Shown here piece after piece: positions 1-28,499 of a DNA stretch of 64,000 nt (its first letter is position 1; each line of letters starts with the position of its first letter). The notes under the pieces are model-generated. The model saw only the letters and a list, made by a program, of their open reading frames with translations, had not been told where the DNA came from and ran no database searches. The position numbers were made by a program, and so were the translations under genes. The stretch comes from Gloeocapsa sp. PCC 7428 (GTDB lineage: Bacteria; Cyanobacteriota; Cyanobacteriia; Cyanobacteriales; Chroococcidiopsidaceae), in NCBI RefSeq assembly GCF_000317555.1, contig NC_019745.1, forward strand, positions 558,001 to 622,000, in the 5' to 3' direction.

Positions 1-589
1 TCGGTGCGGATACATCGACGTTTTGTGCGCCAAACCAAGGTTTTGTAACGGCTAATTGATACGTATCAGCGAGGAATCTACCAGCAGCGATCGCAATTCC
101 CAACGATAATGGTAATAATGCGGCGACGAACCATTTACGCTGAGGACTTTGACGGCGATTTAATATCCACAAACCACCAAAAAATAACAAACAAAAGATT
201 CCTATCCCGATTACCAAAACCCAATTTACACTGCGTACAAACTGCTGCAAAATTAAACTCACGCCCCAAGTTGCTAGCAGTGTTTCTAAAGGTCGTCCGT
301 AGAGATAACGAATGACTCCACGTTCGAGAATCAATCCCACTCCCGCCGTGACCAAAAATGCCAAGATGAGCGCAAAAAAGATATAAATATCAAAAAAAGG
401 TTCAGCGAACTGTCGAAAGCCATTTTGGACGACAAACGTAGTGTATGCGCCAAGCATCATCAACTCACCATGTGCTAAATTGATGACTCCCATCAGTCCA
501 AAAACAATCGCGAGTCCTAGCGCTGCAATCAGTAAAACAGCACCAATACTAATCCCATTAAATAAGCCGTCAAACAATCCTATTAGCAC
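1..589 (-). CDS. urtB: Urea ABC transporter permease UrtB (5' part, runs off the window)
   Basis: This is the first 196 codons of a branched-chain-amino-acid-type permease that forms the membrane channel of the high-affinity urea importer. I read a GTG start at 589, giving MLIGLFDGLFNGISIGAV followed by LGLAIVFGLMGVINLAHGEL, the hallmark of LivH/UrtB permeases. Several hydrophobic segments follow. The reading frame stays open to the window edge, so the 3' part is missing. It lies 98 bp downstream of urtA on the same strand, the normal urtA-urtB order. The gap contains a repeat hairpin that could lower readthrough. The identification rests on family motifs and on the adjacent urtA. Confidence 0.88.
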   Translation of the reverse strand, partial: MLIGLFDGLFNGISIGAVLLIAALGLAIVFGLMGVINLAHGELMMLGAYTTFVVQNGFRQFAEPFFDIYIFFALILAFLVTAGVGLILERGVIRYLYGRPLETLLATWGVSLILQQFVRSVNWVLVIGIGIFCLLFFGGLWILNRRQSPQRKWFVAALLPLSLGIAIAAGRFLADTYQLAVTKPWFGAQNVDVSAP

Positions 590-687: not shown

Positions 688-2007
688 TTAAGTCATTTTG
701 AATCTGCCACCTTTGTTAGGATCAGACCAATCACAAGCATATCCTTTTGTTTCTTTCACGAATTGATTCCAAGGAATTGGTTCAACGGCTGAATCAGTAG
801 AATTAATGATTTCAAACATTCCATCATCTCTGACTTCGCCGATACGCACCACCTTAGAAATATGGTGGTTAGGCTGCATTGTAACTGTACCTTCTGGAGC
901 ATCTAAAGTTTGCCCATAAGCCGCCGCACGTACCTTTGCTAAATCCTCCGCTGTACCTGCTTTTTCTACCGCTTGCTTCCACAAATAAACGGCAATATAA
1001 GCAGCTTCCATCGGATCGTTCGTGACGCGGTCTTGTCCATATTTTTGCTTGAAAGCTTGGACAAATCTTTGGTTTGCTGGTGTCTCTACTGTCTGGAAAT
1101 AGTTCCACGCAGCGTAATGACCTTTAAGATAATCAGCACCAATGGCTCTTACTTCTTCTTCAGCGATACTCACTGACATCGAAGGATAGCGATCGGGTGT
1201 CAATCCTGCGCCTTGTAACTGCTTAAAGAATGCTACATTACTATCACCATTTAAAGTGTTATAAATGACACCGCCATTGGGTAATGCTTGACGAATTTTA
1301 GTGATAATTGGTGTAACTTCGGTGTTACCTAAAGGTAGATAGTCTTCGCCAACAATTCTGCCGCCCTTTTCTGCGACTTGCGCTTTAATGATAGTATTGG
1401 CAGTACGCGGAAAAACGTAATCTGAACCTACTAGAAAGAAGTCTTTGCCTTTATTTTGCAACAACCAATCGACTGATGGTTCAATTTGTTGATTCGGCGC
1501 TGCACCAGTATAAAAGATATTTTTAGAACATTCTTGTCCTTCATATTGCACTGGATACCAGAGCATATGATCTCTTTGTTCAAAAACAGGTAGAACATTC
1601 TTACGACTTGCCGAAGTCCAACACCCAAAAACCGCAACAACTCGATCTTGGTCAATTAATTTAGTTGCTTTTTCTCTAAAAGTATCCCAGTTGGAAGCAC
1701 CATCTTCTACGATCGCTTCGATGCGTCTACCAAGAACGCCACCAGCATTATTAATTTCTTCAATCGCTAGCTGTTCTGCATCGACAACGCTTTGTTCGCT
1801 AATTGCCATTGTGCCACTGAGCGAGTGCAAGATTCCTACTTTAATCGTGTCTCCACCACTCGCAGTCGTTGTTGTACTAGCTGGCGATGACGCATTCGTT
1901 GCACTCGTTGTTGTTTGGTTATTGGTACAAGCCTTTAAAAAAAGACTAGAACCAAGAGTTGCGGAACCATATACAAGAAATTTACGCCTATTAAATCTGC
2001 TTACCAT
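688..2007 (-). CDS. urtA: Urea ABC transporter substrate-binding lipoprotein UrtA
   Basis: This 439-residue periplasmic binding protein captures urea for the Urt importer. The N terminus has a twin-arginine motif (RRKF, residues 7-10), a short hydrophobic stretch and a lipobox ending at Cys27. This implies Tat export and membrane anchoring. From residue 54 it matches the Periplas_BP_6 fold, beginning [17 protein letters not shown], which is typical of UrtA. The length is normal for the family. It is the first gene of the visible urt unit, with urtB downstream. An NtcA site and -10 box sit just upstream (separate entry), so nitrogen-starvation induction is expected. Similar amide-binding proteins exist (AmiC, FmdD), but the urtB neighbour favours urea. 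Confidence 0.93.
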
Positions 2008-2644: not shown

Positions 2645-3319
2645 TCAGATACTGCCAAATGCTTGCATAACATTAGCAGCGGTTGCTGTCCAGCCAACGA
2701 TTCCACCTTGGGCGCGAATCATTTCTAAGGTAGATTCTTTAAACTCTGGGAAGTAGCTTGCTGTTGCATCTTCAACAAGTAAACATTCAAAGCCGCGATC
2801 GTTGGCTTCGCGCATTGTTGTTTGGACGCAGACTTCGGTAGTCACTCCGGTGATAATCAGGTGTGTAATGCCTTGTTTGTGTAGATAGGATTCGAGAGAA
2901 GTTTGGTAAAAAGCACCTTTACCTGGTTTAGAAATCACGATTTCGCCTGTCATTGGCTGTAGTTCAGGAATAATCGCATTCCCTAATTCACCTAAAATAA
3001 GTATGCGTCCCATTGGTCCTGGATCGCCAATTTTTAACTGACCGTTTCCGCGACGCAACTTTGACGGCGGACAGTCGGATAAATCCGGTTGATGTCCTTC
3101 AACGGTGTGAAATACGGGTAATTGACGTTTGCGAAAGATTTCGAGTAAGCTCTTAAGAGTGGGGATAATTGCGCTTAAGTGACGCACATCATTACCTAAT
3201 GCTTCCCCAAATCCACCAGGTTCTAAAAAGTCACGCTGCATATCGATAATTAACAGTGCTACTTTCTGCAATTCTGAGGGAAGTTCGTAATCGTAGGGTT
3301 GTGCAGCAATTAAGACCAT
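2645..3319 (-). CDS. Isochorismatase-fold amidohydrolase (biuret/ureide hydrolase type)
   Basis: This 224-residue cysteine hydrolase is predicted to cleave a C-N amide bond of a small ureide. The catalytic triad is intact: Asp26 (DMQRDF), Lys131 (SKPGKGAF) and Cys164 (TTEVCVQTT). Gln204 (RAQGGIVG) sits at the same spacing as the substrate-binding Gln of the biuret-hydrolase-like protein at 5,435-6,148, a close paralogue. The ATG at 3,319 lies inside the last codons of the cupin gene (10-bp overlap), indicating translational coupling. It is the last gene of the ureide operon. Substrate is unknown; a second ureide such as triuret, or the same biuret, are possibilities by analogy only. Confidence 0.8.
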
Positions 3320-3657
3320 AGCACTACAGGTTTTTCCCAAATTGCTAAGACAATACAGCCAGTTTCACTTGTAACAGTGTGACTCGTACCAGGAGGATTA
3401 ATCACCAAAGTTCCGGTTTGGTGTTCGCCATTGCGATCGCTTTGCGAACCAGATAGTATAAAAATATGTTCAAACCCAACGTGTTCGTGTTTCGGGACAA
3501 CTGCACCAGGTTGATACCGTAATAGTGCCGCTGTTGCCCCCTGTTCGCCGTCTTGATAAAAGCGATAAATATCTACCCCAGGGCGAAAAGGTTCCCACGG
3601 TAGATCGTCATGCCAAGCAGCAATATTGAATAAGTTCTTAAGTGTCAAAACTTTCAT
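3310..3657 (-). CDS. Small cupin-domain protein (ChrR-like cupin)
   Basis: This 115-residue single-domain cupin carries a metal-binding pattern, [10 protein letters not shown] (residues about 56-65), followed by a proline- and glycine-rich strand and a third histidine in NPPGTSHTV. This resembles the C-terminal cupin of ChrR anti-sigma factors. It lies between the ABC ATPase and a hydrolase gene in the ureide operon and overlaps the hydrolase start. It could be a small metalloenzyme, a ligand sensor or a stabilising partner; the sequence does not decide between them. No ribosome-binding site is obvious before the ATG. Confidence 0.78.
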
Positions 3658-3695
3658 AGTTGTTTGTAATTAAGTGAACTAGTAAAAATAAAGGA

Positions 3696-3832
3696 TGGTC
3701 ATTGGTAACTGGTAATTGGTCATTGGTAACTGGAAAAATACTTATTAAGAATTCCCTATTACCCATTACCCATCACCACTAATTAGTCATTGGAAAAATA
3801 CTGATGAAGAATTACCGATTACCTACTACCAA
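3696..3832. repeat. Degenerate tandem repeats (TTGGTAACTGGTAATTGG family)
   Basis: Two related blocks, each containing GTCATTGG and then GAAAAATACT followed by (G/A)AAGAATT, are each followed by runs of ATTACC. The block fills the gap between the ATPase and the cupin and belongs to the same family as 620-683 and 9,749-9,822. Confidence 0.75.
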
Positions 3833-3850
3833 CTTCAACAAGTGTGGTAT

Positions 3851-5419
3851 TTAATCATGTCCTGCCATACGTTGACCAATGGTAGTAATATCAGCATCAG
3901 CGATCGCACTTTCATAAACAAATTTGCCTTCGCTGATGACAACAATGCGATCGGCGAGTGTGAGAAGTTCGTCCAAATCTTCACTGACTAACAGTACCGC
4001 AACACCACGATTGCGGGCAGCAACGATTTGGGTGTGAATATATTCAACAGCAGCGAAATCTAAACCGAAACAGGGATTAGCGGCAATGAGTAAATTGATG
4101 CACGAACTTGATAATTCGCGGGCTAATACAGTACGCTGGACGTTACCACCAGAAAGATTGCCTACCGGTGCATCGACTGAAGGGGTTTTGATCGAAAAGC
4201 TACTTACCAAACTTTTAGCTGCTTCGCGCATTGCTTTGAGAACGAGTAACCAACCGAATGACGCTTGTGGGGGACGATCGAATGTGCGTAATGCTAGATT
4301 TTTTGCCACACTCATGTGCGGAACGCACGCATTGCGTAAAGGTTCTTCGGGAAGTGCAAAGACGCGATGACGAAACATCTGTGCGCGAGTAGCGGTGTAT
4401 GTTTCGCCGTTAACTAATATTTGCCCTGCTGTCGCCGGACGTTGACCTGCTAAAACTTCGACTAATTCGCGTTGACCGTTACCAGAAACCCCCGCAATTC
4501 CAACAATTTCGCCACTGCGAACAGTTAAATTAACACCATTGACAGCGGCTAAACCATTGTCTTTATGGGCGTGAATGTTTTTGAGTTCTAAAACTGGAGT
4601 TGTTGCAACTGATGTTATTTTATCAAGCTGCTGCGTTTCGCGACGTTCTCCTAGCATCATTGTTGCTAAGTCAGCTAGTGATAAATCTTTGACCAACCCA
4701 TGACCAGCTTTCTTTCCTTTGCGCAGTACCGTCACTTCATCGACAAATGCCATCACTTCGCGGAATTTGTGACTAATCATCAATACGCTTAAGTTTCCCG
4801 CTTGCACTTCATTGCGGAGTAACCCCAAGACTTCATCAGCTTCCTGGGGAGTTAACACCGATGTTGGTTCATCTAAAATCAGAATCCGGCTTTGTAAATA
4901 GAGTTGTTTGAGAATTTCTAGCTTTTGCTTTTGTCCCGCAGCCAATTGCACCACTGGAGTATCAAGATCAACTTGAAACGGTGCGCTTTGCATAAATGCT
5001 TTGAGTTGTGCATACTCGTTTTTCCAGTTAATTACGTTGCGATCGCCGTATCGTGACAGCACTAAATTTTCCGCAACAGTCATGGCGGGGACAGAAGTAA
5101 AGTGCTGATATACCATACCAATGCCATATTTATGCGCATCGCGAGGACTGGAAATATTACGCGATCGCTTATCGACTAACACATCGCCTTTATCAGGAGT
5201 GTAAAAACCCATGATGCACTTGACTAACGTACTTTTTCCCGCGCCATTTTCGCCTAAAAGTGCGTGAAACGTTCCAGGTTTGAGGTGTAGCGAAACATTA
5301 TCTAGCGCTATCATTGCGCCAAATCGTTTGGTCATGTTCACCACTTCTAAATCGGGTGGTAAAGTTAACTTTTCGCTAATAGTTTGTTGCTTTTCAATTG
5401 CATCTGTTAATCCTGACAT
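3851..5419 (-). CDS. BMP-type ABC transporter ATPase (two fused ATP-binding domains)
   Basis: This 522-residue protein contains two tandem ABC domains and powers the importer formed with the permeases at 7,727-8,647 and 8,666-9,742 and the lipoprotein at 9,826-11,001. Domain 1 has a full Walker A (GENGAGKS, near residue 57) and Walker B ILILDEPTSVLT, but an atypical signature (LAAGQKQKLEIL). Domain 2 has a degenerate Walker A (GVSGNGQREL) with a good signature (LSGGNVQRTVLA). This asymmetry is normal in the RbsA/YufO sugar and nucleoside ATPases. An AAGGAAAA ribosome-binding site precedes the ATG. The gene lies among amidohydrolases rather than beside its permeases, so transport and catabolism appear co-regulated. 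Confidence 0.9.
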   Translation of the reverse strand: MSGLTDAIEKQQTISEKLTLPPDLEVVNMTKRFGAMIALDNVSLHLKPGTFHALLGENGAGKSTLVKCIMGFYTPDKGDVLVDKRSRNISSPRDAHKYGIGMVYQHFTSVPAMTVAENLVLSRYGDRNVINWKNEYAQLKAFMQSAPFQVDLDTPVVQLAAGQKQKLEILKQLYLQSRILILDEPTSVLTPQEADEVLGLLRNEVQAGNLSVLMISHKFREVMAFVDEVTVLRKGKKAGHGLVKDLSLADLATMMLGERRETQQLDKITSVATTPVLELKNIHAHKDNGLAAVNGVNLTVRSGEIVGIAGVSGNGQRELVEVLAGQRPATAGQILVNGETYTATRAQMFRHRVFALPEEPLRNACVPHMSVAKNLALRTFDRPPQASFGWLLVLKAMREAAKSLVSSFSIKTPSVDAPVGNLSGGNVQRTVLARELSSSCINLLIAANPCFGLDFAAVEYIHTQIVAARNRGVAVLLVSEDLDELLTLADRIVVISEGKFVYESAIADADITTIGQRMAGHD

Positions 5420-5434
5420 TGGTTTTCCTTGGTT

Positions 5435-6148
5435 CTAATGAACACTTACCTCTGTTTGAACTTTCATAGGCGCGATCGCCTCAATAAATGCTTGCGAATC
5501 AGCAACCGCACCAAAGACACCACCTTGCATTTTGATCATTTTTAACGCCGCTAAGTAGTTACCGTAATCGGTTGCGCCTGTGCAGTCGGAGAGTAGCAAA
5601 CATTCATAACCGCGATCGTTCGCATCGCGCATTGTCGTATGAACGCAGACATCAGTTGTAATTCCGCTAAGAATGATATTTTGAATGCCTTTGCGGTTTA
5701 AAATCAAATCTAAATCAGTTGCATAGAATGACCCTTTTCCTGGCTTATCGATAATCACTTCGCCTGGAAGCGGTGCAAGTTCGGGAATAATTTCCCAGCC
5801 TGGTTCGCCACGAACGAGAATTTTGCCACAAGGACCAGGATCGCCAATTCCCGCACCAATTTGTTGCGATCGCCAGCGTTTATTTTCTGGTAAATCAGAT
5901 AAATCTGGTCGATGTCCCTCGCGCGTATGAATGACATGAAAACCTTTTGCCCGTGCAACTTCTAGAACTTTCCGAATTGGTTCAATCGGTGCGCGAGTCA
6001 ACGACAAATCGTATCCCATGCGATCGACATAGCCGCCAATTCCGCAAAAATCCGTCTGCATATCAATAATTAGCAGTGCCGTATTTTCAGGACGCAAATC
6101 GCCATTAAAAGGATAGGGATACGGATCAGCTTCAACAAAGTGTACCAT
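5435..6148 (-). CDS. biuH: Biuret amidohydrolase-like cysteine hydrolase
   Basis: This 237-residue isochorismatase-fold enzyme is predicted to convert biuret to allophanate and ammonia in the cytoplasm. The visible triad is Asp29 (DMQTDFCG), Lys135 (DKPGKGSF) and Cys168 (TTDVCVHTT), with Gln208 (KMQGG) as a likely substrate contact. From memory, the Rhizobium leguminosarum BiuH residues are D36, K142, C175 and Q215. All four would then be shifted by exactly seven, a strong sign of orthology, though I could not align the sequences. It sits between the ABC ATPase and the formamidase genes, and the operon also has an allophanate-hydrolase-type domain. N-carbamoyl amino acid or ureidoacrylate hydrolysis is the main alternative. 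Confidence 0.75.
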
Positions 6149-6181
6149 AGTAAATTTAGATTATTGGCAAAAGAACACTAT

Positions 6182-7216
6182 CTAACTCTTTTCAACCTTC
6201 CCTCGCTCCTCGCTCCTTACTCCTCGCTCCTCATAAGTGCGTGTCGGAGGTGGAAAACCGCAAGCAGTTCCATCTTTGTGAATCACCGCGTCTTCCCACG
6301 GGAGGCGATAGCAGCCGTTAACTAAATCTTGCATATAGGTGTAAGGACAATCTTGCGCGCCACCTTTAACGGCAACATAACCGCGATGTCCAAATTGATA
6401 AATATTATTTTCTACACCCCAGTGAATACGGGCTTCGCGGACGAGATCGGGGCGTACCTCGGCAGTGATAATTTCATCAGGGCGATCGCTTCCCTTCACT
6501 AACGGCGTACCGTCAAAATTAACGATCATACCTTCGCCCATCGAGTCAAACGTGCCATCGCTACCGCACATACACACTGATGCAGTGTACATCAGATTAC
6601 AAAACGCATTGGCTTGATTCGTGATTTGCCAACTATGCCGAATTGGTGCAGTGTAACCCGCCGTCCGAATCATAATTTCTGCACCTTTGTAGGCACATTC
6701 GCGTGCCATTTCGGGAAACATTCCGTCATGACAGATGATGAGTGCGATCGTGCTACCGTTAGGACCAACGCATACGGGAATTCCTAAATTACCTGGTTCC
6801 CACGGTTCGACAGGTATCCACGGATGCAATTTGCGGTAGTAAAGTTTTAATTCTCCGGTATCATCAATAATAATGCCGCTATTGTAGGGATTTCCGTGCG
6901 GATTGTATTCCACGATCGAGAAACAGCCCCAAATGCGGTGATCTCGACAAGCTTTTTGAAACGCAGCAACTTCTGGTCCATCCAAGCGGCACATAATTTC
7001 CGGATTCGTATCCATCGATAAGCCGTGAAGTGAATATTCCGGAAACACAACTAAATCCATCGCGGGCAAATTGCGGCGGGCTTTGGCGACCATCTGACAA
7101 ATGCGATCGCACTGTACAGTTAAATCATCGGGAGTCACAATGTTGGGAAGTTGTAGCTGCACAAGACCAATAACGACTCCGTTAGGTGATTTGTTGAGTC
7201 CACCGAGTCCACTCAT
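6182..7216 (-). CDS. amiF: Formamidase / aliphatic amidase (nitrilase superfamily)
   Basis: This 344-residue nitrilase-fold enzyme hydrolyses a small aliphatic amide, most likely formamide, to ammonia and formate. The triad is Glu60 (FPEYS), Lys129 (YYRKLHPW) and Cys162 (ICHDGMFPE). The ICHDGM sequence around the cysteine is typical of AmiF rather than AmiE. The Lys-Cys spacing of 33 matches what I recall for Helicobacter AmiF. AAGGAGAT precedes the ATG. The last 15 or so residues (ERGVRSEERGKVEKS) are encoded by a CGCTCCT-type tandem repeat (6,201-6,232) and look like an acquired tail. The gene lies between the allophanate-hydrolase-domain and biuret-hydrolase-like genes. Confidence 0.85.
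   Translation of the reverse strand: MSGLGGLNKSPNGVVIGLVQLQLPNIVTPDDLTVQCDRICQMVAKARRNLPAMDLVVFPEYSLHGLSMDTNPEIMCRLDGPEVAAFQKACRDHRIWGCFSIVEYNPHGNPYNSGIIIDDTGELKLYYRKLHPWIPVEPWEPGNLGIPVCVGPNGSTIALIICHDGMFPEMARECAYKGAEIMIRTAGYTAPIRHSWQITNQANAFCNLMYTASVCMCGSDGTFDSMGEGMIVNFDGTPLVKGSDRPDEIITAEVRPDLVREARIHWGVENNIYQFGHRGYVAVKGGAQDCPYTYMQDLVNGCYRLPWEDAVIHKDGTACGFPPPTRTYEERGVRSEERGKVEKS
6201..6232. repeat. CGCTCCT heptamer repeats forming the formamidase C-terminal tail
   Basis: Degenerate seven-base units (CGCTCCT, CGCTCCT, TACTCCT, CGCTCCT) run through the last codons of the formamidase gene. A similar block at 7,700-7,735 lies between the next two genes upstream. Confidence 0.8.
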
Positions 7217-7288
7217 GAAAGATCTCCTTTATTTGCAATGTAGGATGAGGACATTAAAAAAGCTCAAAACTATTGCCCCAACTCACGT

Positions 7289-7690
7289 TTAATCCTGTCC
7301 GATCTCCGACCTCTGATCCCTGATATAGTTGCGCCAACCACCCCAAGAGGTAATTTCGCGCTGGTTTTCACATAAGATTGGTTCGCCTAAAACGCCGAGA
7401 ACTTCGCTACCGTCTTCGAGGACGACTTTACCGATGCAAAGTCCAGGGGGTTCTTGGAGTAAGACTTGTACAAGTCCGCTGGGGGGGATTTGCCAAATTT
7501 CCAGGGCGATCGCATTTCCACCACTGGCGACGCGCAGCATCGCGGGGTGTTTATCGTTGATTGACCAGAGGCGATACACTGGTGCGGTTTTGGCTTCGCG
7601 TACGAAGGTGGCGTTGACGGCTAAGAGATTAGGGTTGAGTTCTAAGCCGCGCATTAATGTGCCGTTGACTGCTAAGAGTAAATGTTGCAT
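7289..7690 (-). CDS. Stand-alone allophanate hydrolase C-terminal-like domain
   Basis: This 133-residue protein resembles the C-terminal domain of allophanate hydrolase (AtzF/DUR1 type), which in full enzymes follows the amidase domain and removes carbon dioxide and ammonia from allophanate breakdown. The visible pattern is LAVNGTLMRGL, TAPVYRLWSI, MLRVASGGNAIALEIW, GLCIGKVVLEDG and ITSWGGWRNYI. No amidase domain with a Ser-Ser-Lys triad is present here or elsewhere in the window. It could act with an amidase encoded elsewhere or directly on a ureide. The last residues (RDQRSEIGQD) come from another tandem-repeat stretch. Its place between the permease and formamidase genes supports a role in ureide use. 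Confidence 0.75.
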   Translation of the reverse strand: MQHLLLAVNGTLMRGLELNPNLLAVNATFVREAKTAPVYRLWSINDKHPAMLRVASGGNAIALEIWQIPPSGLVQVLLQEPPGLCIGKVVLEDGSEVLGVLGEPILCENQREITSWGGWRNYIRDQRSEIGQD

Positions 7691-7699
7691 TCTTTATCT

Positions 7700-7735
7700 C
7701 GCTCCTCGCCCCTCGCTCCTAACCCCTCATTGCCC
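7700..7735. repeat. CGCTCCT-type degenerate heptamer repeats
   Basis: Units such as CGCTCCT, CGCCCCT, CGCTCCT and AACCCCT fill the gap between the allophanate-hydrolase-domain gene and the permease gene. The GGAGCGAG they make on the minus strand probably serves as ribosome-binding site for the downstream ATG at 7,690. Confidence 0.72.
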
Positions 7736-8647
7736 TAATGCCCCTGGTGCGCCATTGAGTGTGCGTTTGGGCGAACAGGTGAGGATCATGATGAGGAGGG
7801 TGAGAATGTAGGGGGAGGCGTTGAAGAGGTAGTAGTAGGAATCGATACCAACGGATTGTAGCGCGGGACCGATCGCTTGCGCACCTCCAAAGAGGAGCGA
7901 GGCGTATAAGCATTGCATTGGTTGCCAACGCGCGAAGATGACGAGGGCGACTGCCATTAAACCTTGACCGCCGGAAATACGTTCGTTCCAGCTACCAGGA
8001 TAGTAGAGGGATAAATAAGCACCGCCGATTCCTGCGAGAAAGCTACCGACGATGATGCATAGCATTCGGACTTTGAAAATTGAGATTCCCATTGCTTTGG
8101 CGGCGTCGGGGCTATCACCAACCGCGCGGATGTAGAGTCCCCAGCGTGTGGCGCGAAAGAACCATTGCATTAAGGGTGCGATCGCAACTCCAATTAAAAA
8201 TAATGGGCTAATCTGCAATGCTGATTGCACTTGTGGTAAACTGCTCCATGCCCCAAATGGCAGCGCGGGGAGTGGTGGCGCGGAAGGTTGAATAAAGGGT
8301 TTACCTAAGAAAAAGGCAATTCCGCTACCAAAGATGATCATCGCGATGCCTACTGCGACATCGTTGACTCTGGGTTGTTGCGATAGCCACCCGTGAATCA
8401 CACCTAACATCATGCCGGCGACTCCTGCCATAATAACGCCTAGCCACGGCGAACCTGTAAGGTATGACATTGCATACGCACTCATTGCACCTGTGAGAAG
8501 GGTTCCTTCAAGTCCTAAGTTGATTTTGCCGCTTTTTTCGGTGAGGCATTCGCCTAAACTGACAAATAGAAATGGGGCGCTACCGCGTAGTGTTCCGGCG
8601 GCGATCGCTAGGGGAACTCCCCACCAGCCTAATGCTTGAGTTTCCAT
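7727..8647 (-). CDS. BMP-type ABC transporter permease (second permease)
   Basis: This 306-residue integral membrane protein has the BPD_transp_2 fold of sugar and nucleoside importers. The N-terminal signature FVSLGECLTEKSGKINLGLEG (near residues 28-48) is typical of YufQ/RbsC-like subunits. About eight hydrophobic segments are visible, with the conserved cytoplasmic EAA-like loop RAVGDSPDAAKAMGIS near residue 190. AGGAGAAAGGAA precedes the ATG. It lies immediately downstream of the first permease gene and should form a heterodimeric channel with it. The substrate is not revealed by sequence; the hydrolase neighbours suggest a small amide or ureide. Confidence 0.88.
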   Translation of the reverse strand: METQALGWWGVPLAIAAGTLRGSAPFLFVSLGECLTEKSGKINLGLEGTLLTGAMSAYAMSYLTGSPWLGVIMAGVAGMMLGVIHGWLSQQPRVNDVAVGIAMIIFGSGIAFFLGKPFIQPSAPPLPALPFGAWSSLPQVQSALQISPLFLIGVAIAPLMQWFFRATRWGLYIRAVGDSPDAAKAMGISIFKVRMLCIIVGSFLAGIGGAYLSLYYPGSWNERISGGQGLMAVALVIFARWQPMQCLYASLLFGGAQAIGPALQSVGIDSYYYLFNASPYILTLLIMILTCSPKRTLNGAPGALGQ

Positions 8648-8665
8648 TTCCTTTCTCCTACAATG

Positions 8666-9742
8666 CTACGTAGTAACCGCTGAACCCTGACCGCTGACCG
8701 CTGACCGCTCCTTAAAAAACCTGCCGTAGAGCGATTCGCTAAACAGAACGACTAAGAATACTAAACCTTGAAAAACAAGAACTGTGGCATCAGGGAGGTT
8801 ATGCGATCGCTGTAAACTTCCACCACTTGCTAAAATTCCACCAAGTAAAATGGCGACTAAGGTTGCCGCTAAGGGATTATGTCGGGCAATAAATGCAACT
8901 AAAATACCGCTATAGCCGTAATTTGCATTCAAAGATTCATTCGCACGTCCATGCACAGCGGCAACTTCAACCATACCGGCTAATCCGGCACAAGAACCGG
9001 CTAAAAAGCAAATCATCATGGTGAGTTTACCCACAGGAAGTCCGGCAATCCTCGCAGCGCGGATATTTCCACCCGCAACGCGCGCCGCAAAGCCGAACGT
9101 TGTGCGTTGAATCAGGAAATAAGCGATAACACACGCAACAAGTCCGTAAATCAAACCATAGTGAACGCGAGTTCCAGGGATATCGCCTAACATATTAATT
9201 TCTGCGATCGGGTAACTCGAAGGCTTGTTGAGCGAACTTGGATCGCGCATGGGTCCACCGACAAGGTGATTGAGGAGCGCGATCGCAATATAATTTAGGA
9301 GCAAGCTACTAATCGTTTCATTTACGCCGCGATAATGCCGTAACGCACCCACAGCCCCAATCCACAATCCACCACAAACAATTGAGGCGATCGCCATCGC
9401 AATTTGTACTACCGTCGGTGGCGCGGATGATAACGCTAGCCCTGCGGCAACAGCCCCCAAACCCCCAACAACAATCGCGCCTTCGTTTCCAATAATCACC
9501 AAACCGAGACGTGCAGGAAGCGCAGTACACAACGAACTTAGCATCAATGGTGCAGCGCGTAGTAACGTATTCTGAAACGCCCGCCAACTACCAAACGCGG
9601 AGCGATAAATTGAAGCATAAACACCAAAAGGATCAGCACCAGCAAACGCACAAAAAATGCCAAATAGTAGCAACGAAAACAGCAACGCCGCTAAAGGTAT
9701 GCAAAGTGCTTCAATGCTTCGCGAGTTGTAACGATTAATCAT
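8666..9742 (-). CDS. BMP-type ABC transporter permease (first permease)
   Basis: This is the partner permease, about 358 residues, with eight or more hydrophobic segments and BPD_transp_2 features such as LRAAPLMLSSLCTALPARLG, VIIGNEGAIVVGGLGA and NETISSLLLNYIAIALLNH. I chose the ATG at 9,742 (MINRYNSR). The upstream in-frame codons translate the 21-bp tandem repeat at 9,749-9,790 and are unlikely to be real protein. The C-terminal tail (SAVSGQGSAVTT) is likewise encoded by TGACCGC tandem repeats at 8,676-8,710. The gene lies between the binding lipoprotein gene and the second permease gene in one operon. Confidence 0.87.
   Translation of the reverse strand: MINRYNSRSIEALCIPLAALLFSLLLFGIFCAFAGADPFGVYASIYRSAFGSWRAFQNTLLRAAPLMLSSLCTALPARLGLVIIGNEGAIVVGGLGAVAAGLALSSAPPTVVQIAMAIASIVCGGLWIGAVGALRHYRGVNETISSLLLNYIAIALLNHLVGGPMRDPSSLNKPSSYPIAEINMLGDIPGTRVHYGLIYGLVACVIAYFLIQRTTFGFAARVAGGNIRAARIAGLPVGKLTMMICFLAGSCAGLAGMVEVAAVHGRANESLNANYGYSGILVAFIARHNPLAATLVAILLGGILASGGSLQRSHNLPDATVLVFQGLVFLVVLFSESLYGRFFKERSAVSGQGSAVTT
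8676..8710. repeat. TGACCGC tandem repeats in a permease 3' end
   Basis: Three near-perfect TGACCGC heptamers plus one degenerate unit overlap the stop region of the first permease gene and encode its last dozen residues. Confidence 0.78.
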
Positions 9743-9748
9743 AATTTT

Positions 9749-9822
9749 GGTAACTGGTAATTGGTCATTGGTAACTGGTAATTGGTCATTGGAAAAATAC
9801 CCATTACTCATTACCCTTTACC
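9749..9822. repeat. 21-bp perfect tandem duplication within a TTGGTAACTGG repeat block
   Basis: The 21-bp unit at 9,749-9,769 is repeated exactly at 9,770-9,790, then GGAAAAATAC and ATTACC-type units follow. The block separates the binding lipoprotein gene from the permease gene. The exact duplication implies recent slippage. Confidence 0.85.
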
Positions 9823-9825
9823 GCA

Positions 9826-11001
9826 TTAACTACTTACATTCCCCACAACACCTGTAACTAACCAATTCATCTTTTCCAATTCTTGATCTTGCTGCTGAAA
9901 ATCTTTACCAGCCGGAATCACAACTTTTCCAGTGTTATCTTTCAGTTCGCCTCGGTAAACAATCATGCTACCATCCATAAACTTTGCTTTAGCAGCATCC
10001 GCAGTTTGCCTAGCATCTGCACTCACCGCAGTACCATAAGGCGATAACTTCAAAAAGCCATCTTTCAAACCACCACGTACTAGATGGGGAATTCCGCCAT
10101 TCATCAATGTTTGACCTGCACGAATCATTTCGACATAATTCGTATAAACTTGCGTCCAATCCCACTCTGCACCTGTAAGATATCCCTTGGGTGCAAGTGC
10201 AGCTTGATTAGCATGGTAGCCACTACAGAAAATTCCGCGTTTCTCTGCGGTTTCCATCACCACTTTAGGACTATCTACATGACAGGTAATAACGTCAATA
10301 CCTTGATCTGCCATGCTGTTGGCTGCTTCAGCTTCTTTAACTGGTAATGCCCAGTCGCCTGTAAAAATAACTTGTGTTGTAATTTCAGGTTTAACACTAC
10401 GCGCGCCCAACGTGAAGCTATTGATGTTACGCAGTACCTGCGGAATAGGTTTAGCAGCAATAAAGCCTAATTTACCTGTTTTAGACGTTTGACCAGCAAC
10501 AACGCCAGCTACATACTGTGCTTCATCGATGTAACCGAAGTAACTGCCAACGTTTTGCGGATGTACGCCATCTTGGTAAAGTCCACCGCAGTGAAAAAAC
10601 TGGACTTCAGGATACTCTTGGGCAATTTTGAGGATATGCGGGTCATAATAGCCAAAAGAAGTAGGAAACAAGATAGTCGCGCCATCTTCTTCAATCATAT
10701 TCCGCATTGTTTCTTCGACTGCGGTTGTTTCAGGAACATTCGCTTCTTCAACAATTCTGACACCTAGGAGTTTAGCAATTCCTGCTGCACCTTCTGCATG
10801 AGCTTGATTGTAGCCGTAGTCATCTTTAGGACCAACGTAAATAAAACCAATCACAAGCGGATTATCTCCACCACCCGCAGTATTCGCTTGCGTTTCTTGA
10901 GTGGAAGCACATCCACCTAACTTGGCGGTTACTCCAAATGCAGTCGTTGCTAAAAGCCCACGAACAACTTGACGACGAGATAAATAGATTCTTTTACTCA
11001 C
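9826..11001 (-). CDS. BMP-family ABC transporter substrate-binding lipoprotein
   Basis: This 391-residue binding protein of the BMP/Med/PnrA family is the capture component of the importer. I chose a GTG start at 11,001 because AAGGAG lies 7 bases upstream. It gives MSKRIYLSRRQVVRG with a twin-arginine motif (Arg9-Arg10) and a lipobox ending at Cys31. The mature part begins near PLVIGFIYVGPKDDYGYNQAHAEG, a pattern I associate with BMP proteins near urea-cycle-type amidases. Classical BMP proteins bind nucleosides, but operon context here points to a ureide or amide. It is the first gene of the 11,001-2,645 operon. No perfect NtcA box was found upstream. Confidence 0.87.
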   Translation of the reverse strand: MSKRIYLSRRQVVRGLLATTAFGVTAKLGGCASTQETQANTAGGGDNPLVIGFIYVGPKDDYGYNQAHAEGAAGIAKLLGVRIVEEANVPETTAVEETMRNMIEEDGATILFPTSFGYYDPHILKIAQEYPEVQFFHCGGLYQDGVHPQNVGSYFGYIDEAQYVAGVVAGQTSKTGKLGFIAAKPIPQVLRNINSFTLGARSVKPEITTQVIFTGDWALPVKEAEAANSMADQGIDVITCHVDSPKVVMETAEKRGIFCSGYHANQAALAPKGYLTGAEWDWTQVYTNYVEMIRAGQTLMNGGIPHLVRGGLKDGFLKLSPYGTAVSADARQTADAAKAKFMDGSMIVYRGELKDNTGKVVIPAGKDFQQQDQELEKMNWLVTGVVGNVSS

Positions 11002-23301: not shown

Positions 23302-24357
23302 TTAATCAACTAAACCAAATTCCAGTGCTGAGAGATTCGTTCCCGTACGCACGACATTCTCTAGCTGAAAACCACTCGCTGTAAACAAGCGTTCATATTC
23401 CTTCTGAGTACGCCACGCGCCGCCAGGAACTGCCACCATAATTTGTGTTGCAAACAGTGATGGAATAATACCATCAGGACAAACTGTTGGCTCGCCTAAA
23501 TCGGGAACAATACATTGTAATAAAACGACCTTGCCGTGTTTTGGCAGTGCTTCTCGACAATACCGTAGTATCGTCAGAGCATCCTCATCTTTCCACGAAG
23601 ATAGAAAATACTTCATCACGATCGCATCCGCCCCAGTCGGCAACCCTTCAAAGACATCCCCTGTGACGATTTGGACAGCATCAGCCGCAACACCTTGTTT
23701 TTGTATATATGCAGGTGCTGTTTCTGTCACATACGGCAAATCAAATAACATACCTTTACAGCCAAAGCGCTTGACAATTTTAGAAATTAACCCGCCTTGA
23801 CCGCCACCAACATCCATTACTGTACCAAAGCGGCTAAAGTCAAAAACATCGAGCAAGGCATCAACAGCATGATCGGTTAAGAAACTCATCGCTTTGATGA
23901 AAACATCGCCACTCCAGTCCTCATCCCGCGTAAACTCATAAACCGTTTTGCCATTAGCACGCTCAAACGGCACTTCACCAGTGTGTAAACACGTTTCTAA
24001 CTCCTTCCAAGCATCCCACTGTGCTGGTTCAATAATATGCATTGCAAAATGCCCAATCGAAGGTCCGGCGTTTGTCACAAGCAGATTGGACACTTCAGTA
24101 GCAGCAAAAATTTTTCCTGGCTGTTCTTCTAAAACGCCTAAATGCCCTAAAGCACGCAGAATAACGTAGAGTTTGTCTGCTTTAGTTGCAGTTTTTTCCG
24201 CTAGCGTTTCAATATTTTGTGAACCTTCAGACAATATATTAAAAATATCTAGGCGTGTGGCTACGTATAAACACTGGCTTTCCCAGAAAGCTTGAATCAT
24301 GCCAAAAACTTTCTTTTTGGCTTCCATGTTGTTTTTTTGAGCAAGTGTTGTTGTCAT
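23302..24357 (-). CDS. Methyltransferase-fold protein (plant-type OMT family, catalytic His replaced)
   Basis: This 351-residue protein has the two-part layout of plant-type O-methyltransferases. A winged-helix dimerisation domain (residues about 15-110) is followed by a SAM-binding Rossmann domain with VMDVGGGQGGLISKIVKRF (motif I), MLFDLPYV and IVTGDVFEGLPTGAD. Where family members have LHDW with a catalytic histidine, this one reads KYFLSSWKDEDA, so the usual base is a serine. It may methylate by another mechanism, or catalyse a different SAM-supported reaction as RdmB-like relatives do. GGAG precedes the ATG. It lies 156 bp downstream of mysC on the same strand, so a link to mycosporine synthesis is likely but unproven. 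Confidence 0.8.
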   Translation of the reverse strand: MTTTLAQKNNMEAKKKVFGMIQAFWESQCLYVATRLDIFNILSEGSQNIETLAEKTATKADKLYVILRALGHLGVLEEQPGKIFAATEVSNLLVTNAGPSIGHFAMHIIEPAQWDAWKELETCLHTGEVPFERANGKTVYEFTRDEDWSGDVFIKAMSFLTDHAVDALLDVFDFSRFGTVMDVGGGQGGLISKIVKRFGCKGMLFDLPYVTETAPAYIQKQGVAADAVQIVTGDVFEGLPTGADAIVMKYFLSSWKDEDALTILRYCREALPKHGKVVLLQCIVPDLGEPTVCPDGIIPSLFATQIMVAVPGGAWRTQKEYERLFTASGFQLENVVRTGTNLSALEFGLVD

Positions 24358-24466
24358 TGAAACTCCGCTATGAATTAAATGTTTCAGGATTTAGGCGAAA
24401 TTATGAAAGAACCACAAAGAACACAAAGGTAATAGAGGGTTCTTGCGTAGGTTCGATATTTGAGAG

Positions 24467-24483
24467 GTAGGTAAGATGTCTAC
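24467..24483. repeat. GTAG...CTAC repeat, inverted partner of 23,101-23,121
   Basis: GTAGGTAAGATGTCTAC is the inverse of the core at 23,104-23,120 with one mismatch, so the methyltransferase-fold gene is bracketed by inverted copies. Confidence 0.6.
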
Positions 24484-24513
24484 TCTACAAGCTGCTAGTT
24501 TTTTATTGATGAA

Positions 24514-25881
24514 TCAATCGCCTCCCAACTGCACCAGCTTGCCAATATTAAAGTCAATGCGTTCCCAGCCTTTCAGTTGACGTACATTGTTGAGAATGAG
24601 CAGGGGAATTTGCCAGTGGTTGACTCCGAGAAATGGTAGGGGATCGCGCGGATGAAATACTGGATCTACGCCATTGAAAATAATACCGAGCCGATACTGT
24701 AGATCTTTCCAAGATTTGACTTTTGTTAGTAACCGCCAAAGCTCGTGAAATGTCCAATACGTCGGCTTACTCTCAGGTAATGGCTGCACAGGTTCTTTTG
24801 GTGCTTGCGCACTACTACTGAGGTAAGCATCTGCCACTACTTTTGGCTGGTCGTGGAACATCGTAATACAAGTACTCGTTCGCGGATTGCATTCAATCGG
24901 ATACACCGTGCCATCTTCTGCTTGAATGAAATCCAAGCAAATTTGCCCCGTCAAGTTAAGTTCTTTAACAAAGCGCGTCACCCAATCGAGAATCGCTGGA
25001 TTGTAGTCATGTTCGTAGTTGACTAAAAAGTCGCAGGATTTAGAACACGCGTAAAGCAGCAACTTTCCATCTCGAACAACAGCATGAGTACAGTACTCTT
25101 GCCCTTTGAGAAATTCCTGCATAATCCAGGGATTTTCCGCACTGATTGGCAAACTGTGAACGTACTCTGCCATTTTTTCGGGCGCGCAGGGCAACTTGAG
25201 CAATGCTAAGCGGTTAATTGAGTCGTAAGCAATGCTTTTGAGAATATACTGGCTACCGTCAGCGGCGAAGTCGAAGTTGAGGACTTGTTCTGGGTTTGTA
25301 ATCAGGAAGGTTTTCGGTGCAGACAACCCGACAGAATGCGCTTTTTGGTTGAAAGTGAACTTGTTGTCTAGTAACTTTGTTGTTTCAGCGTCAAAAGCAA
25401 ACACCTCGCAGTAAGGCGACAATGCTGGTTTTGCTAAGGAGTCGTAATAGCTAGCAACTGGGCTAGATACGGGAATGAACATATCAATTTTTTCTTGTTT
25501 GACAATGTTCAATAATCCTTGAATGTAGCCTTCAGCGTCGTGTTGTGGTGCGGGAACTGTGTATAAAGCTTCTACGCAGTTAGAAAACTGATTGCCTGAT
25601 AACCAGTACTTTTTGGTTTCTACCATGAAAACCTGATGCCCAGCCGCATGAAACGATCGCGCCAAGGTTAAGCACTTTGTCATTTTGGCACCAGTCAGTA
25701 AAATCCGTTTGGGTTCCACCTGCACGCGGCGCTTTTGAAATAAGCTTGTCAGCGAACTCCAAAGCAGCGCACCAACAACAACGCTCAAAGAAAATGGAAA
25801 AGCCAATAAAAGTAAAGTCAAAGTACCGAGGCTTTTGAGCAAAGCAAAAGTTCGCTCGCTGGTAGTTTGTCCTGATTGCAT
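24514..25881 (-). CDS. mysC: MysC: ATP-grasp mycosporine-glycine synthase
   Basis: This 455-residue ATP-grasp ligase is predicted to join 4-deoxygadusol with glycine to make mycosporine-glycine. The N terminus has a hydrophobic anchor (residues about 15-36). The remainder matches the MysC pattern: ILLTGAKMTKCLTLARSFHAAGH, KYWLSGNQFSN, SSPVASYYDSLAKPALS, ATP-grasp QEFLKGQEYCTHAVV, metal-binding IECNPRTSTCITMF, and the terminal WERIDFNIGKLVQLGGD. Length agrees with the Anabaena enzyme as I recall it. Only 24 bp separate it from mysB upstream. No MysD ligase or NRPS-like MysE is present nearby, so a mono-substituted mycosporine is the simplest product. Glycine is assumed by homology. Confidence 0.9.
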   Translation of the reverse strand: MQSGQTTSERTFALLKSLGTLTLLLLAFPFSLSVVVGALLWSSLTSLFQKRRVQVEPKRILLTGAKMTKCLTLARSFHAAGHQVFMVETKKYWLSGNQFSNCVEALYTVPAPQHDAEGYIQGLLNIVKQEKIDMFIPVSSPVASYYDSLAKPALSPYCEVFAFDAETTKLLDNKFTFNQKAHSVGLSAPKTFLITNPEQVLNFDFAADGSQYILKSIAYDSINRLALLKLPCAPEKMAEYVHSLPISAENPWIMQEFLKGQEYCTHAVVRDGKLLLYACSKSCDFLVNYEHDYNPAILDWVTRFVKELNLTGQICLDFIQAEDGTVYPIECNPRTSTCITMFHDQPKVVADAYLSSSAQAPKEPVQPLPESKPTYWTFHELWRLLTKVKSWKDLQYRLGIIFNGVDPVFHPRDPLPFLGVNHWQIPLLILNNVRQLKGWERIDFNIGKLVQLGGD

Positions 25882-25905
25882 GATTACACGCCTTAGAAAA
25901 CGGAT

Positions 25906-26565
25906 TTAGGCAGTTACCGCTACAAGCGTTCCATCTCCAGCCGGAAATACGGTACTCATGACACGCTTAGAAGTAGCAACGTGTTTGTGGAACATTTGCA
26001 TCGCTTTTACTCCTTCATCGGTTGTATCCGCATCAAGGATAGTACGGTGGAGGAATACATTATGAGCAACGATAAACCCGCCAGGACGAGTATTTTCTAA
26101 TGCCCAATCAAAGTAATCGATGTAGCCCGTTTTTTCGGCATCGATGAATACAAAATCAAAAGGTCCTTGTGCAGCAATCGAATCAACTAATACGTGCGCA
26201 TCGCCACAAAGAATCTCGATTTGGTGAGCAACATTGGCTTTGGCAAAATTGTCTTTAGCAATGTCCGCGCACATCGGTTCTTTCTCGAAGGTAAACAGTT
26301 TACCTCCTGGTGCTAAGCCACGCGCAATCCAAATACTGCTATATCCGACAAGTGTGCCAAATTCTACTGCGGATTTGGCATTGCTGGCGCGGACGAGTAG
26401 TTGCAGAAAGCGCCCTTCCTCTGGATTGATATCGTGGGGAGGTAAGCCTTCTTTGGGTGGGCGATCGCGAATTTGTTGTAAGGTTTCATCTTCAACAATG
26501 AACAAGTTGCGAATATATTGACTGAGTTGCTCGTTGTATTCAATCGTCTCGTTGACTGTAGTCAT
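25906..26565 (-). CDS. mysB: MysB-like SAM-dependent O-methyltransferase
   Basis: This 219-residue cation-dependent O-methyltransferase (caffeoyl-CoA OMT type) probably makes 4-deoxygadusol from the cyclitol produced by the next gene upstream. Visible motifs are SAVEFGTLVGYSSIWIARGL (SAM-binding motif I), FTFEKEPMCADIAK, and the metal-site region DFVFIDAEKTGYIDYFDW. I chose the ATG at 26,565 (MTTVNETIEYNEQ) because longer readings run into mysA. It is about 60 residues shorter at the N terminus than the Nostoc MysB I remember. It lies 32 bp after mysA and 24 bp before mysC, a tight operon. Confidence 0.85.
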   Translation of the reverse strand: MTTVNETIEYNEQLSQYIRNLFIVEDETLQQIRDRPPKEGLPPHDINPEEGRFLQLLVRASNAKSAVEFGTLVGYSSIWIARGLAPGGKLFTFEKEPMCADIAKDNFAKANVAHQIEILCGDAHVLVDSIAAQGPFDFVFIDAEKTGYIDYFDWALENTRPGGFIVAHNVFLHRTILDADTTDEGVKAMQMFHKHVATSKRVMSTVFPAGDGTLVAVTA

Positions 26566-26597
26566 GGTGGCAATAAAAGCGACAAAGTTAATTTGAA

Positions 26598-27791
26598 TTA
26601 CAAAGAGGACACTTGCGTGCGGGGGTCTCCCCCGTTGAGCAAAGTGTCCGGTGAAGTTTGCATGGCGGCGTCGGGTTCTAATTGCGCGATCGCTTTTACG
26701 GCTGTTTTGATCTCCTCGTAGGTAATATCGTGGAAAAATTGTGCTGCACCAATTCCTACGGTTAACGGAAAGCGCTGTAATCCATTGCGGTGTTTTGTTG
26801 TACTTTGCAATGCTGCGTACAGCAATTCGGGAGTACAAATCGGATGCAGTAACGGTAAACGCACGCTGCGCATAAAGTTATAAATGCGTTCGACTTCTTG
26901 ATAAGTGACTAAACTTCTTTGATAGGCAAGCATCACCGAGATTGCCATATCAACCGCTACAGCTTCCCCGTGTAAGAGTTTTGGGACTGCTTTTAACTCT
27001 AGCGTCGGACAGAATGTGTGACCGTAATCGACAAGTCTTTCAAGTTTCTCTTCCCAGAGATTTGATTCTAGATCTTCCAGCATTCCTTGCACTGATCGCC
27101 GAATAATAGGGACAGCTTCGGGATTTTGGCACTTGCTACTTAGCATGGCTGCGCCGTAATTTTCTAATAGCTCAAATAATTCTGCATCTTTAACGAGGGC
27201 AATTTTGAGAATCTCTGCAATACCGTTACTAATTTGTCTGTCACTGAGTGTTTCTAACAGCGTTGTATCTAGGATTGCGGCAAGTGGCGGATAAAATGTG
27301 CCGATTCGGTTTTTATGACCTTGGAAATTTACCGCTGTTTTGGCACCGATCGCCGCATCAACGACGCCTAGTAATGTTGTCGGAACGCGAATATAGGGAA
27401 TTCCCCGTCGAAAAAGGTTAGCCGCTAAGCCAACAATATCCATCAATACGCCACCACCGATCGCAATCACGGGTTCGGATCGTCGCGAAACTTCAAACGC
27501 ATTCAGTTCTTCAATCACCTGAAAAACTGTATCCATCGACTTATTGTCTTCTGACACCGAAAGCGAAATAAGACGATATTCGATTTCGTGATACTGAAAA
27601 TACTGGCGAATGCGTTCTCCATGCAGACGTTCAACATAGTCATCTACGATAACGACCCGACGCAAAGACTTTTGACTCGAATTTTGCCCATCGAACAACA
27701 GCGCGTTGTTTTCCGGATTGAACAGGTCGAAACTCTCAAATACAGTGTAATGAACTGGTAATTGTGTCTTGACTGACCACTTGGCACTCAT
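26598..27791 (-). CDS. mysA: C7-cyclitol synthase of the DDGS/EEVS type
   Basis: This 397-residue sugar-phosphate cyclase converts sedoheptulose-7-phosphate to a C7 cyclitol, the first step toward gadusols and mycosporines. The NAD-binding and active-site signatures are present: VIAIGGGVLMDIVG, IRVPTTLLGVVDAAIGAKTAVN, ISNGIAEILKIALV and YGHTFCPTLELKAVP followed by LLHGEAVAVDMA. Proline in HTFCP, where 3-dehydroquinate synthase has a second metal histidine (HTFGH), places it with DDGS/EEVS. The Nostoc DDGS motif I remember is HTWSPTLE, so this is a diverged variant. ATG at 27,791 is preceded by GAAGAGG. The last residues (LNGGDPRTQVSSL) derive from a 43-bp hairpin element. Confidence 0.85.
   Translation of the reverse strand: MSAKWSVKTQLPVHYTVFESFDLFNPENNALLFDGQNSSQKSLRRVVIVDDYVERLHGERIRQYFQYHEIEYRLISLSVSEDNKSMDTVFQVIEELNAFEVSRRSEPVIAIGGGVLMDIVGLAANLFRRGIPYIRVPTTLLGVVDAAIGAKTAVNFQGHKNRIGTFYPPLAAILDTTLLETLSDRQISNGIAEILKIALVKDAELFELLENYGAAMLSSKCQNPEAVPIIRRSVQGMLEDLESNLWEEKLERLVDYGHTFCPTLELKAVPKLLHGEAVAVDMAISVMLAYQRSLVTYQEVERIYNFMRSVRLPLLHPICTPELLYAALQSTTKHRNGLQRFPLTVGIGAAQFFHDITYEEIKTAVKAIAQLEPDAAMQTSPDTLLNGGDPRTQVSSL
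26607..26649. repeat. 43-bp hairpin element in the mysA 3' end
   Basis: Arms GGACACT and AGTGTCC enclose GCGGGGGTCTCCCCC. It supplies the last codons and the region just before the stop of mysA, and is the same element type as those inside both IS copies. Confidence 0.82.
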
Positions 27792-28499
27792 AACCCTCTT
27801 CAATCCTCTTGACTCAACAAGTTGTGTGATTCGGAAATTAAAGACCTCTGCTGGCAATTTGGTTGTCGTGACTGCGATATATAGCAGGGGTCAGGATTCA
27901 GGGGTGAGAGGTTAGAAATCAAGGTTAAAACAATGATTCTGGGCGCCTCTACAATGTCCTAACCGTATTGACCCTTGCGGGAACACCACACGGCACTCAA
28001 CCGCTTAAGCTTAGGCAACAGCTTCGCCGAACGGGGAAAGCAAAGGCTTGGTACGTAGAAGGACTTCATTACTGCGATCGCACTTGCAGACAAAGAAATC
28101 CTCTCGTTATACACTTATCGCTGCCAATGGCTTGATATTCGAGGAAATTGATTCTTGTGCTGAATTTTGTCTCGGTTGGGTTCCGTACAGAAATTCAAAT
28201 CAAGATTGCAATATACTCAGGAAATAACTGTTCGTTATTGTTCAGGTGGCGTCTTCGTTCCAACAACTTTGATTATTGTGATGGAATTGACTACGACCTG
28301 CAAATTAGTACAGAGGCATATACACAAAAAGCACATTTGTTTTGCTAATAATTCAGCCCCTACCGTGTCAGTCACTATTTATACTAGCGATAGGACACAT
28401 CAACGCAGCTGGCAATTTTTGTTAGCTGAGTTTTCATTGGTGGAGACCGTGCTAATAGCAACCCAATATAAATGTATATCATTTTGATAACACAAGATC
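27792..28499. other. Intergenic region upstream of the mycosporine operon
   Basis: About 700 bp without a convincing gene. A 27-bp repeat (27,946-27,972, CCTCTACAATGTCCTAACC...) matches 15,015-15,041 at about 24 of 27 positions. The mysA promoter should lie here but I cannot place it. Open frames at 28,148-28,487 lack family resemblance and ribosome-binding sites. Confidence 0.55.

Follow-up and report, generated by a model that had tools for sequence, protein, structure and literature searches.

A cyanobacterial operon that probably imports biuret- or triuret-like molecules for their nitrogen and seems to finish through urea

A window of 64,000 nucleotides from Gloeocapsa sp. PCC 7428 (the whole stretch analysed; genome G000, 5.88 Mb in five contigs) carries, on its minus strand at 2645-11001, nine genes for an ATP-binding cassette (ABC) importer of the BMP class and for several hydrolases. 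To judge from sequence comparison, this cyanobacterial gene set probably imports biuret- or triuret-like urea-chain molecules, which are stripped for nitrogen, and the final step appears to go by way of urea rather than by the usual enzyme, the allophanate hydrolase AtzF. We put at about 0.6 the probability that this operon serves to scavenge nitrogen from small ureides, a scheme in which the BMP importer, a TrtA-like hydrolase and the biuret hydrolase BiuH would act ahead of the conversion of allophanate to urea and of urea by urease. The observations behind this reading are the gene content, its co-occurrence in other genomes, the lack of an AtzF match over the cut-off, the presence of urease, and a change in the binding pocket of the importer. 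G and L numbers are our handles for genomes and loci; papers are cited by PMC number.

Open reading frames (ORFs) and profile searches of the window proteins gave nine intact minus-strand genes, as the sequence-only reading had claimed, and each had a clear family match. From the first gene, the order is BMP lipoprotein, permease, permease, AH_C, formamidase, BiuH, ATPase, cupin and TrtA-like hydrolase, with intergenic distances of 14, 18, 36, 72, 33, 15, 193 and -31 bases. Because the 193-base gap precedes the cupin gene, a single transcript of all nine genes is graded as likely only. Permease A (8666..9811) and permease B (7727..8647) both matched PF02653; permease A probably starts later than 9811, since most of its relatives have 356-376 amino acids. 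The ATPase (3851..5419) has two nucleotide-binding domains, with two matches to PF00005.

The importer and BiuH occurred together in other cyanobacteria. In a sample of 386 cyanobacterial genomes, a close relative of the window BMP protein (at least 59% identity) was found in 15 genomes, in 17 copies, and BiuH in 14, all of them within these 15 (Fisher test, 1e-24, not corrected for kinship). All 14 also had a TrtA-like match. In three genomes (G167, G190 and G343), BMP, BiuH and AH_C were all present but at separate places; in G167 the TrtA-like gene also lay apart and the permease genes were not located, and in G011 AH_C alone lay apart. The co-occurrence, even where the loci are distant, supports the earlier proposal that the BMP importer and biuret-type hydrolases form one functional unit. 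Eight other cyanobacterial genomes had only a distant BMP protein (32-36% identity) and no BiuH. This distribution, together with the tree groupings described below, indicates a gene set spread through the cyanobacterial phylum with some transfer.

Gene content was also counted at individual BiuH loci, which were named from the best 80 of 546 relatives; loci with less than 5 kb on either side were dropped from the counts. The 17 cyanobacterial loci had TrtA in 13, ATPase in 12, BMP in 8, AH_C in 6, cupin in 6 and formamidase in 5, with AtzF and the cyanuric acid hydrolase AtzD in none. The 36 loci outside cyanobacteria and Verrucomicrobia had BMP in 34, ATPase in 34, TrtA-like in 30, AtzF in 20, formamidase in 19, cupin in 15 and AtzD in 9.

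The AH_C gene (7289..7690) encodes 133 amino acids, corresponding to the C-terminal domain of allophanate hydrolase only, with no fused amidase domain (PF21986, 139 bits; best solved chain 5c5z, E=2e-43). No match to AtzF (TIGR02713) over the cut-off was found in the window genome, and no fused allophanate hydrolase was found in any of the 14 BiuH-bearing cyanobacteria. In 12 of the 14, AH_C was intact, stood alone and belonged to the operon kind as judged by score (at least 133 bits; at least 64% identity where compared). In G212 both the operon-kind AH_C and BiuH were broken, and G057 had, in place of the operon-kind AH_C, an amidase gene adjoining an AtzF-like AH_C away from BiuH. AH_C frames longer than 600 amino acids occurred in only two of the 386 genomes (G096 and G333), both without BiuH.

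A similar exclusion was seen elsewhere. The search outside cyanobacteria covered 25 BiuH-bearing genomes (L166 left out): 20 had AtzF-length frames, 3 a stand-alone AH_C, 1 a split form and 1 none, and an AtzF-length frame and a stand-alone AH_C were never found together. AtzF here means frame length; G388, G402 and G408 were compared with AtzF itself, and the frame of G388 stops at a contig end. Split AtzF is apparently present in G057 and in a SAR324 genome. The sequence-only reading had noted the AH_C protein, which is indeed there; we can add that it occupies the place of the fused AtzF of other bacteria.

Polar residues conserved in fused AtzF were also found in stand-alone AH_C (26 and 25 sequences overall, 88-100% each, after dropping matches shorter than 300 bases and identical domains). 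The C-terminal domain of AtzF removes CO2 from N-carboxycarbamate. In one verrucomicrobial locus (L132, 1450-2205), a single open frame with an internal Met spans cupin and AH_C, suggesting a fusion or close coupling, and in another (L108) their frames overlap by 8 bases. Allophanate decays spontaneously to urea and CO2 (PMC6219798). The retained residues, this spontaneous decay and the chemistry of the AtzF domain suggest that AH_C alone may remove CO2 from allophanate. The full proposal, that stand-alone AH_C is an allophanate decarboxylase replacing AtzF in cyanobacteria and some Verrucomicrobia, within a urease-dependent biuret pathway whose BMP importer has a pocket retuned from purines to linear ureides, is a tentative one, to which we give less than even odds.

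Two stand-ins for AtzF were considered. An amidase acting in trans as a general partner of AH_C is unlikely, since G293 (150 contigs) and G343 (one contig) each had just one amidase-signature match, which its score places as GatA-like. Formamidase as the replacement was rejected because it co-occurs with AtzF in 8 of the 36 loci outside cyanobacteria and Verrucomicrobia, as well as in L177 and L178, and because 8 of the 14 BiuH-bearing cyanobacteria lack it. As a separate observation, the window genome has a second kind of stand-alone AH_C gene (C1:1399355-1399714, L033), which lies between GNAT and GntR/FCD regulator genes and has several conserved residues changed; judged by score, this kind is present in many cyanobacteria without BiuH. 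In the G212 locus (L082), formamidase, ATPase and TrtA-like genes look intact beside the broken BiuH and AH_C, through either decay or sequence errors.

The binding protein of the importer (9826..11001) matched the Bmp domain PF02608 with 137 bits (curated cut-off 24.1), and its best solved chain was AtzT (6pi5, E=1e-63). Its start is most likely the GTG at 11001, preceded by AAGGAG. The N-terminus carries SRRQVVRG and LGGC, which we take to be a twin-arginine translocation (Tat) motif and a lipobox; start and Tat lipoprotein were thus as first read. In AtzT, guanine is reportedly surrounded by Tyr45, Ser97, Phe98, Glu165, Trp194, Asn218 and Asn220 (PMC6834077). Mapped by alignment (with AtzT sequence from pADP-1), the corresponding window residues are Y70, S121, F122, Q194, W223, H247 and D249, numbered from a GTG at 11019.

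We compared these positions in 74 BMP proteins of BiuH-type loci and cyanobacterial paralogues, a set that drops open frames shorter than 300 amino acids and includes duplicates (L045/L097, L145/L176) and close Rhizobium kin. The Tyr/Trp aromatic sandwich and the Ser-Phe pair were kept. Position 165 was Gln in 68 of the 74, as in the window, Pro, Thr, Ser or Leu in 6, and Glu in none, while positions 218 and 220 were His and Asp in all 74. In G283, the single close-BMP genome without BiuH, position 165 is Leu. The Glu was kept in AtzT and in 8/8 distant cyanobacterial BMP proteins, none of which comes from a BiuH-bearing genome, and in 3/5 distant BMP proteins of other loci, one of them a second rhizobial BMP. 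The Brucella chain 3s99, modelled with adenine (PMC6834077), has Glu together with His and Asp. On this alignment, loss of the Glu distinguishes the present BMP clade from its nearest solved kin. Because the Glu that holds guanine in AtzT is absent from all 74 and mostly replaced by Gln, the pocket favours a flat ureide rather than a purine as ligand, in line with the ureide theme of the sequence-only reading. Its premise that BMP importers are known for nucleosides was too narrow, since AtzT binds guanine and 2-hydroxyatrazine (PMC6834077) and NCBIfam includes putative B6 importers in this transporter class.

All 15 cyanobacteria with the close BMP had urease (a short frame in G212), as did all three non-cyanobacterial genomes with stand-alone AH_C, and the two urease-less genomes among the 25 both had AtzF-type frames. 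At two of the three non-cyanobacterial stand-alone AH_C loci, urease genes were local; the contig of the third was short. The verrucomicrobial locus L108 carries, in this order, ureC, a ureF-like gene, regulator genes, TrtA-like, a membrane protein, BiuH, cupin, AH_C and ureG; there the ureF-like gene and regulators were named by eye, the membrane protein has no Pfam match and ureG is a CobW/HypB/UreG domain. L115 (Pedosphaera, likewise verrucomicrobial) carries, again in order, ureC, ureG, BMP, two permeases, BiuH, ATPase, cupin and AH_C. Among the best 80 of 546 loci, ureC or ureG was seen only in these two and in L135, which has AtzF.

The BiuH gene (5435..6148) scored 421 bits with NF050097 (cut-off 370) and E=8e-127 with chain 6azo. 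Its Asp/Lys/Cys triad lies in invariant alignment columns; the triad was transferred by alignment from TrtA, for which it is described together with the Gln202 position (PMC7948467). The last gene (2645..3340, PF00857) is also an isochorismatase-fold hydrolase, as first noted, but fell under the BiuH cut-off (246 versus 370 bits). Its nearest chains, 6xix and 6xj4, gave 294 bits (6xix, E=1e-86) against 198 bits (E=2e-57) for the top-scoring chain of a biuret hydrolase. We take 6xix to be TrtA of Herbaspirillum, although the structure listing reads only cysteine hydrolase. In the alignment, the Asp/Lys/Cys residues and the position of Gln202 agreed with 6xix, with a numbering offset of 3 derived by hand. 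Both isochorismatases have the catalytic triad, in line with the intact triads of the sequence-only reading. In a quick tree of 174 isochorismatase rows, which leaves out rows with stops or short matches, the gene fell within a 72-member group of TrtA-like proteins from loci of this type (Shimodaira-Hasegawa-like approximate likelihood ratio test, SH-aLRT, 100). Cyanobacterial TrtA rows formed a group of 34 that also held one SAR324 row (support 96), and cyanobacterial BiuH rows a group of 44 that took in four verrucomicrobial or acidobacterial rows (support 85). By score and tree, this second isochorismatase is closest to the triuret hydrolase TrtA, and it is a candidate triuret hydrolase.

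The formamidase gene (6182..7216, FmdA/AmiF type) scored 580 bits with NF009803 (cut-off 406) and matched formamidase chains 5g3o and 2dyu. Its motifs FPEYS, RKLHPW and CHDGM presumably hold the Glu/Lys/Cys catalytic sites. Copies with at least 83% identity were present in 6 of the 14 cyanobacteria with BiuH and not in any of the 372 others; three others had one at 46-47%. The gene was not found at E 1e-60 in 8 of the 14 and is therefore optional, unlike BiuH and TrtA. The small ChrR-like cupin (3310..3657; PF12973, 82 bits) adjoins TrtA-like or AH_C genes in relatives and shows HxH, E and H, presumably metal ligands. It is a candidate decarboxylase or helper; it might be TrtB, whose gene is reportedly the subject of Aukema 2020. 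In three rhizobial records (L179, 11907-12224; L094, 20223-20576; L092, 18178-18531), the small cupin is labelled 'allophanate hydrolase', a label that may mislead on the presence of AtzF in the rhizobial operon.

From these parts we infer the substrates, the direction of transport and the reaction of AH_C as follows. The importer, with its pocket altered from the purine type, would bring in a flat ureide, likeliest biuret and/or triuret. The TrtA-like hydrolase would convert triuret to carboxybiuret, which would lose CO2 unaided or with the help of the cupin or AH_C. BiuH would then convert biuret to allophanate and ammonia, and allophanate would yield urea and CO2, either spontaneously or through the stand-alone AH_C as decarboxylase. 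Urease would finish the route by releasing ammonia from urea, and the formamidase would be an optional extra.

Several results weigh against this scheme. Urease is common in the class (168/386 cyanobacterial genomes) and is also found in 18 of the 20 genomes that have AtzF-length frames; by itself, then, its presence is little proof, and no urease genes were found at the cyanobacterial BiuH loci scanned. No BMP gene lies nearby in 9 of the 17 counted cyanobacterial BiuH loci and no AH_C in 11, and G174 has a TrtA-like gene without BiuH or the close BMP. Loss of Glu165 is not unique to the clade, for two of the five distant BMP proteins (25-27% identity) also lack it. AH_C may be dispensable where allophanate decays by itself (PMC6219798). 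It may also act on another carboxylated ureide, since it is present without BiuH in G230 (127 bits; 1 of the 372 BiuH-less genomes) and, 60% identical and with a TrtA-like enzyme, in Escherichia coli CFT073, where BiuH was not found nearby. A strict GTAN8TAC motif was not found upstream of the window operon.

The case of E. coli CFT073 speaks for a different role of AH_C, namely a TrtB-like carboxybiuret decarboxylase serving TrtA while allophanate decays unaided; alternatively, AH_C could be one half of a split AtzF with its amidase in trans, as the apparent splits in G057 and the SAR324 genome suggest. AH_C appears to substitute for AtzF rather than for a TrtA helper, since AtzF and stand-alone AH_C were never both present in 24 AH_C-containing, BiuH-bearing non-cyanobacterial genomes, and the lone GatA-like amidase matches of two genomes argue against a general split. 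We consider these roles somewhat unlikely. The importer might still be a purine nucleobase importer like AtzT, with the hydrolases processing ureides from intracellular purine oxidation. AtzT, its nearest solved relative, bound guanine at 110 nM and kept it through purification (PMC6834077), the aromatic sandwich and Ser-Phe are retained, and a paper on nitrifiers names the corresponding transporter a nucleoside importer (PMC12625717). The guanine-contacting Glu, absent from the whole clade and kept by all eight distant cyanobacterial and most distant BMP proteins of other loci, makes this alternative improbable.

Use of s-triazines such as cyanuric acid, as in Rhizobium johnstonii 3841, appears more doubtful still. 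AtzD is part of the rhizobial operon and lies in or near a quarter of the loci outside cyanobacteria and Verrucomicrobia (9/36), but it is absent from the nine genes of the window (no genome-wide AtzD search of G000 was made) and from all 17 counted cyanobacterial loci, and another cyanobacterial locus, L039, has merely a 57-residue AtzD-like stretch. Formamide or another simple amide as main substrate, with BiuH and TrtA as side activities, would agree with the score of the formamidase over its cut-off and with its highly identical copies being confined to BiuH-bearing genomes; its lack in 8 of these 14 makes this very improbable. We retain the ureide-scavenging operon as the preferred reading.

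GTAN8TAC, which we take to be the NtcA motif as for nitrogen-controlled genes, occurred in 10 of the 27 cyanobacterial regions that precede BMP versus 14 of 101 controls (p 0.009; two of the ten positive regions are of one genus, and the controls come from 16 of 26 loci). Across the window, 8 copies were observed versus 9.4 expected by chance; one perfect palindrome, at 2090-2103, lies about 80 bases before urtA. This gene (688..2007, minus strand) encodes the urea ABC transporter binding protein (TIGR03407, 600 bits, cut-off 493) and is followed by the start of urtB (2-589, minus strand; frame named by eye), both downstream of the operon and outside the nine-gene set. A promoter and terminator scan gave fewer sites than in shuffled sequences, and an Rfam search of the window gave no match. 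Elsewhere in the window, minus-strand genes at 23302-27857 look mycosporine-type: a sugar-phosphate cyclase, an O-methyltransferase, an ATP-grasp ligase and another methyltransferase, all presumed families read from the sequence.

If the preferred reading is correct, phototrophs have a complete route to ammonia from biuret and triuret, compounds that occur as impurities of fertiliser and as products of uric-acid oxidation. The stand-alone AH_C, an orphan domain that a uropathogenic E. coli also has, would gain a function, and one binding-site change may have turned a purine importer class to ureides. The pairing of a BMP importer with biuret hydrolase, presented as new in the sequence-only reading, has been published for nitrifiers (PMC12625717), and the same operon exists on a rhizobial plasmid. 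The open-access literature searched yielded no report of the cyanobacterial version, of the pocket change that the BMP proteins share, or of AtzF being replaced by a stand-alone AH_C.

Among known systems, the E. coli CFT073 cluster, presumably the c4763 cluster, resembles the window in its stand-alone AH_C and its TrtA-like hydrolase (57% identical). It differs by fdrA, DUF1116, DUF2877, carbamate kinase and a cytosine permease, and no BMP importer, BiuH or AtzF was found within the 49 kb examined. There (L090, 4439-10403) AH_C and the TrtA-like gene flank fdrA, DUF1116, DUF2877 and carbamate kinase, with the cytosine permease beside AH_C, forming a ureide-type cluster, so far unexplained, in this uropathogenic strain. 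The AtzT importer of pADP-1 (atzRSTUVW) shares the BMP class and is the best solved match, but it keeps Glu165, binds guanine, has the order BMP-ATPase-permease-permease and belongs to an AtzEG/AtzH pathway (PMC6834077, PMC6219798). The triuret/biuret loci of ammonia oxidisers, described in 2025, are closer, with bmpA-nupABC beside biuH and trtA; they carry atzF in bacteria and, in archaea, a GatA-like amidase beside biuH with atzF absent, which mirrors the cyanobacterial puzzle (PMC12625717). The main text of that paper mentions neither cupin nor 'formamid...'. The closest counterpart is on pRL10 of R. johnstonii (leguminosarum) 3841, where the genes run BMP, two permeases, formamidase, BiuH, AtzD, ATPase, TrtA-like and cupin. 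All of these except AtzD, eight genes, are shared with the window, and their order is almost identical. The rhizobial locus has AtzD and a GntR regulator, and its AtzF lies elsewhere in the genome, on another contig (L219), whereas the window set has AH_C instead, the order of cupin and TrtA reversed, no AtzD and no regulator gene. BiuH of this strain has been characterised (PMC5806882), and the biuH of the pRL10 operon would be that gene. The window operon is thus the cyanobacterial version of a type of locus already known.

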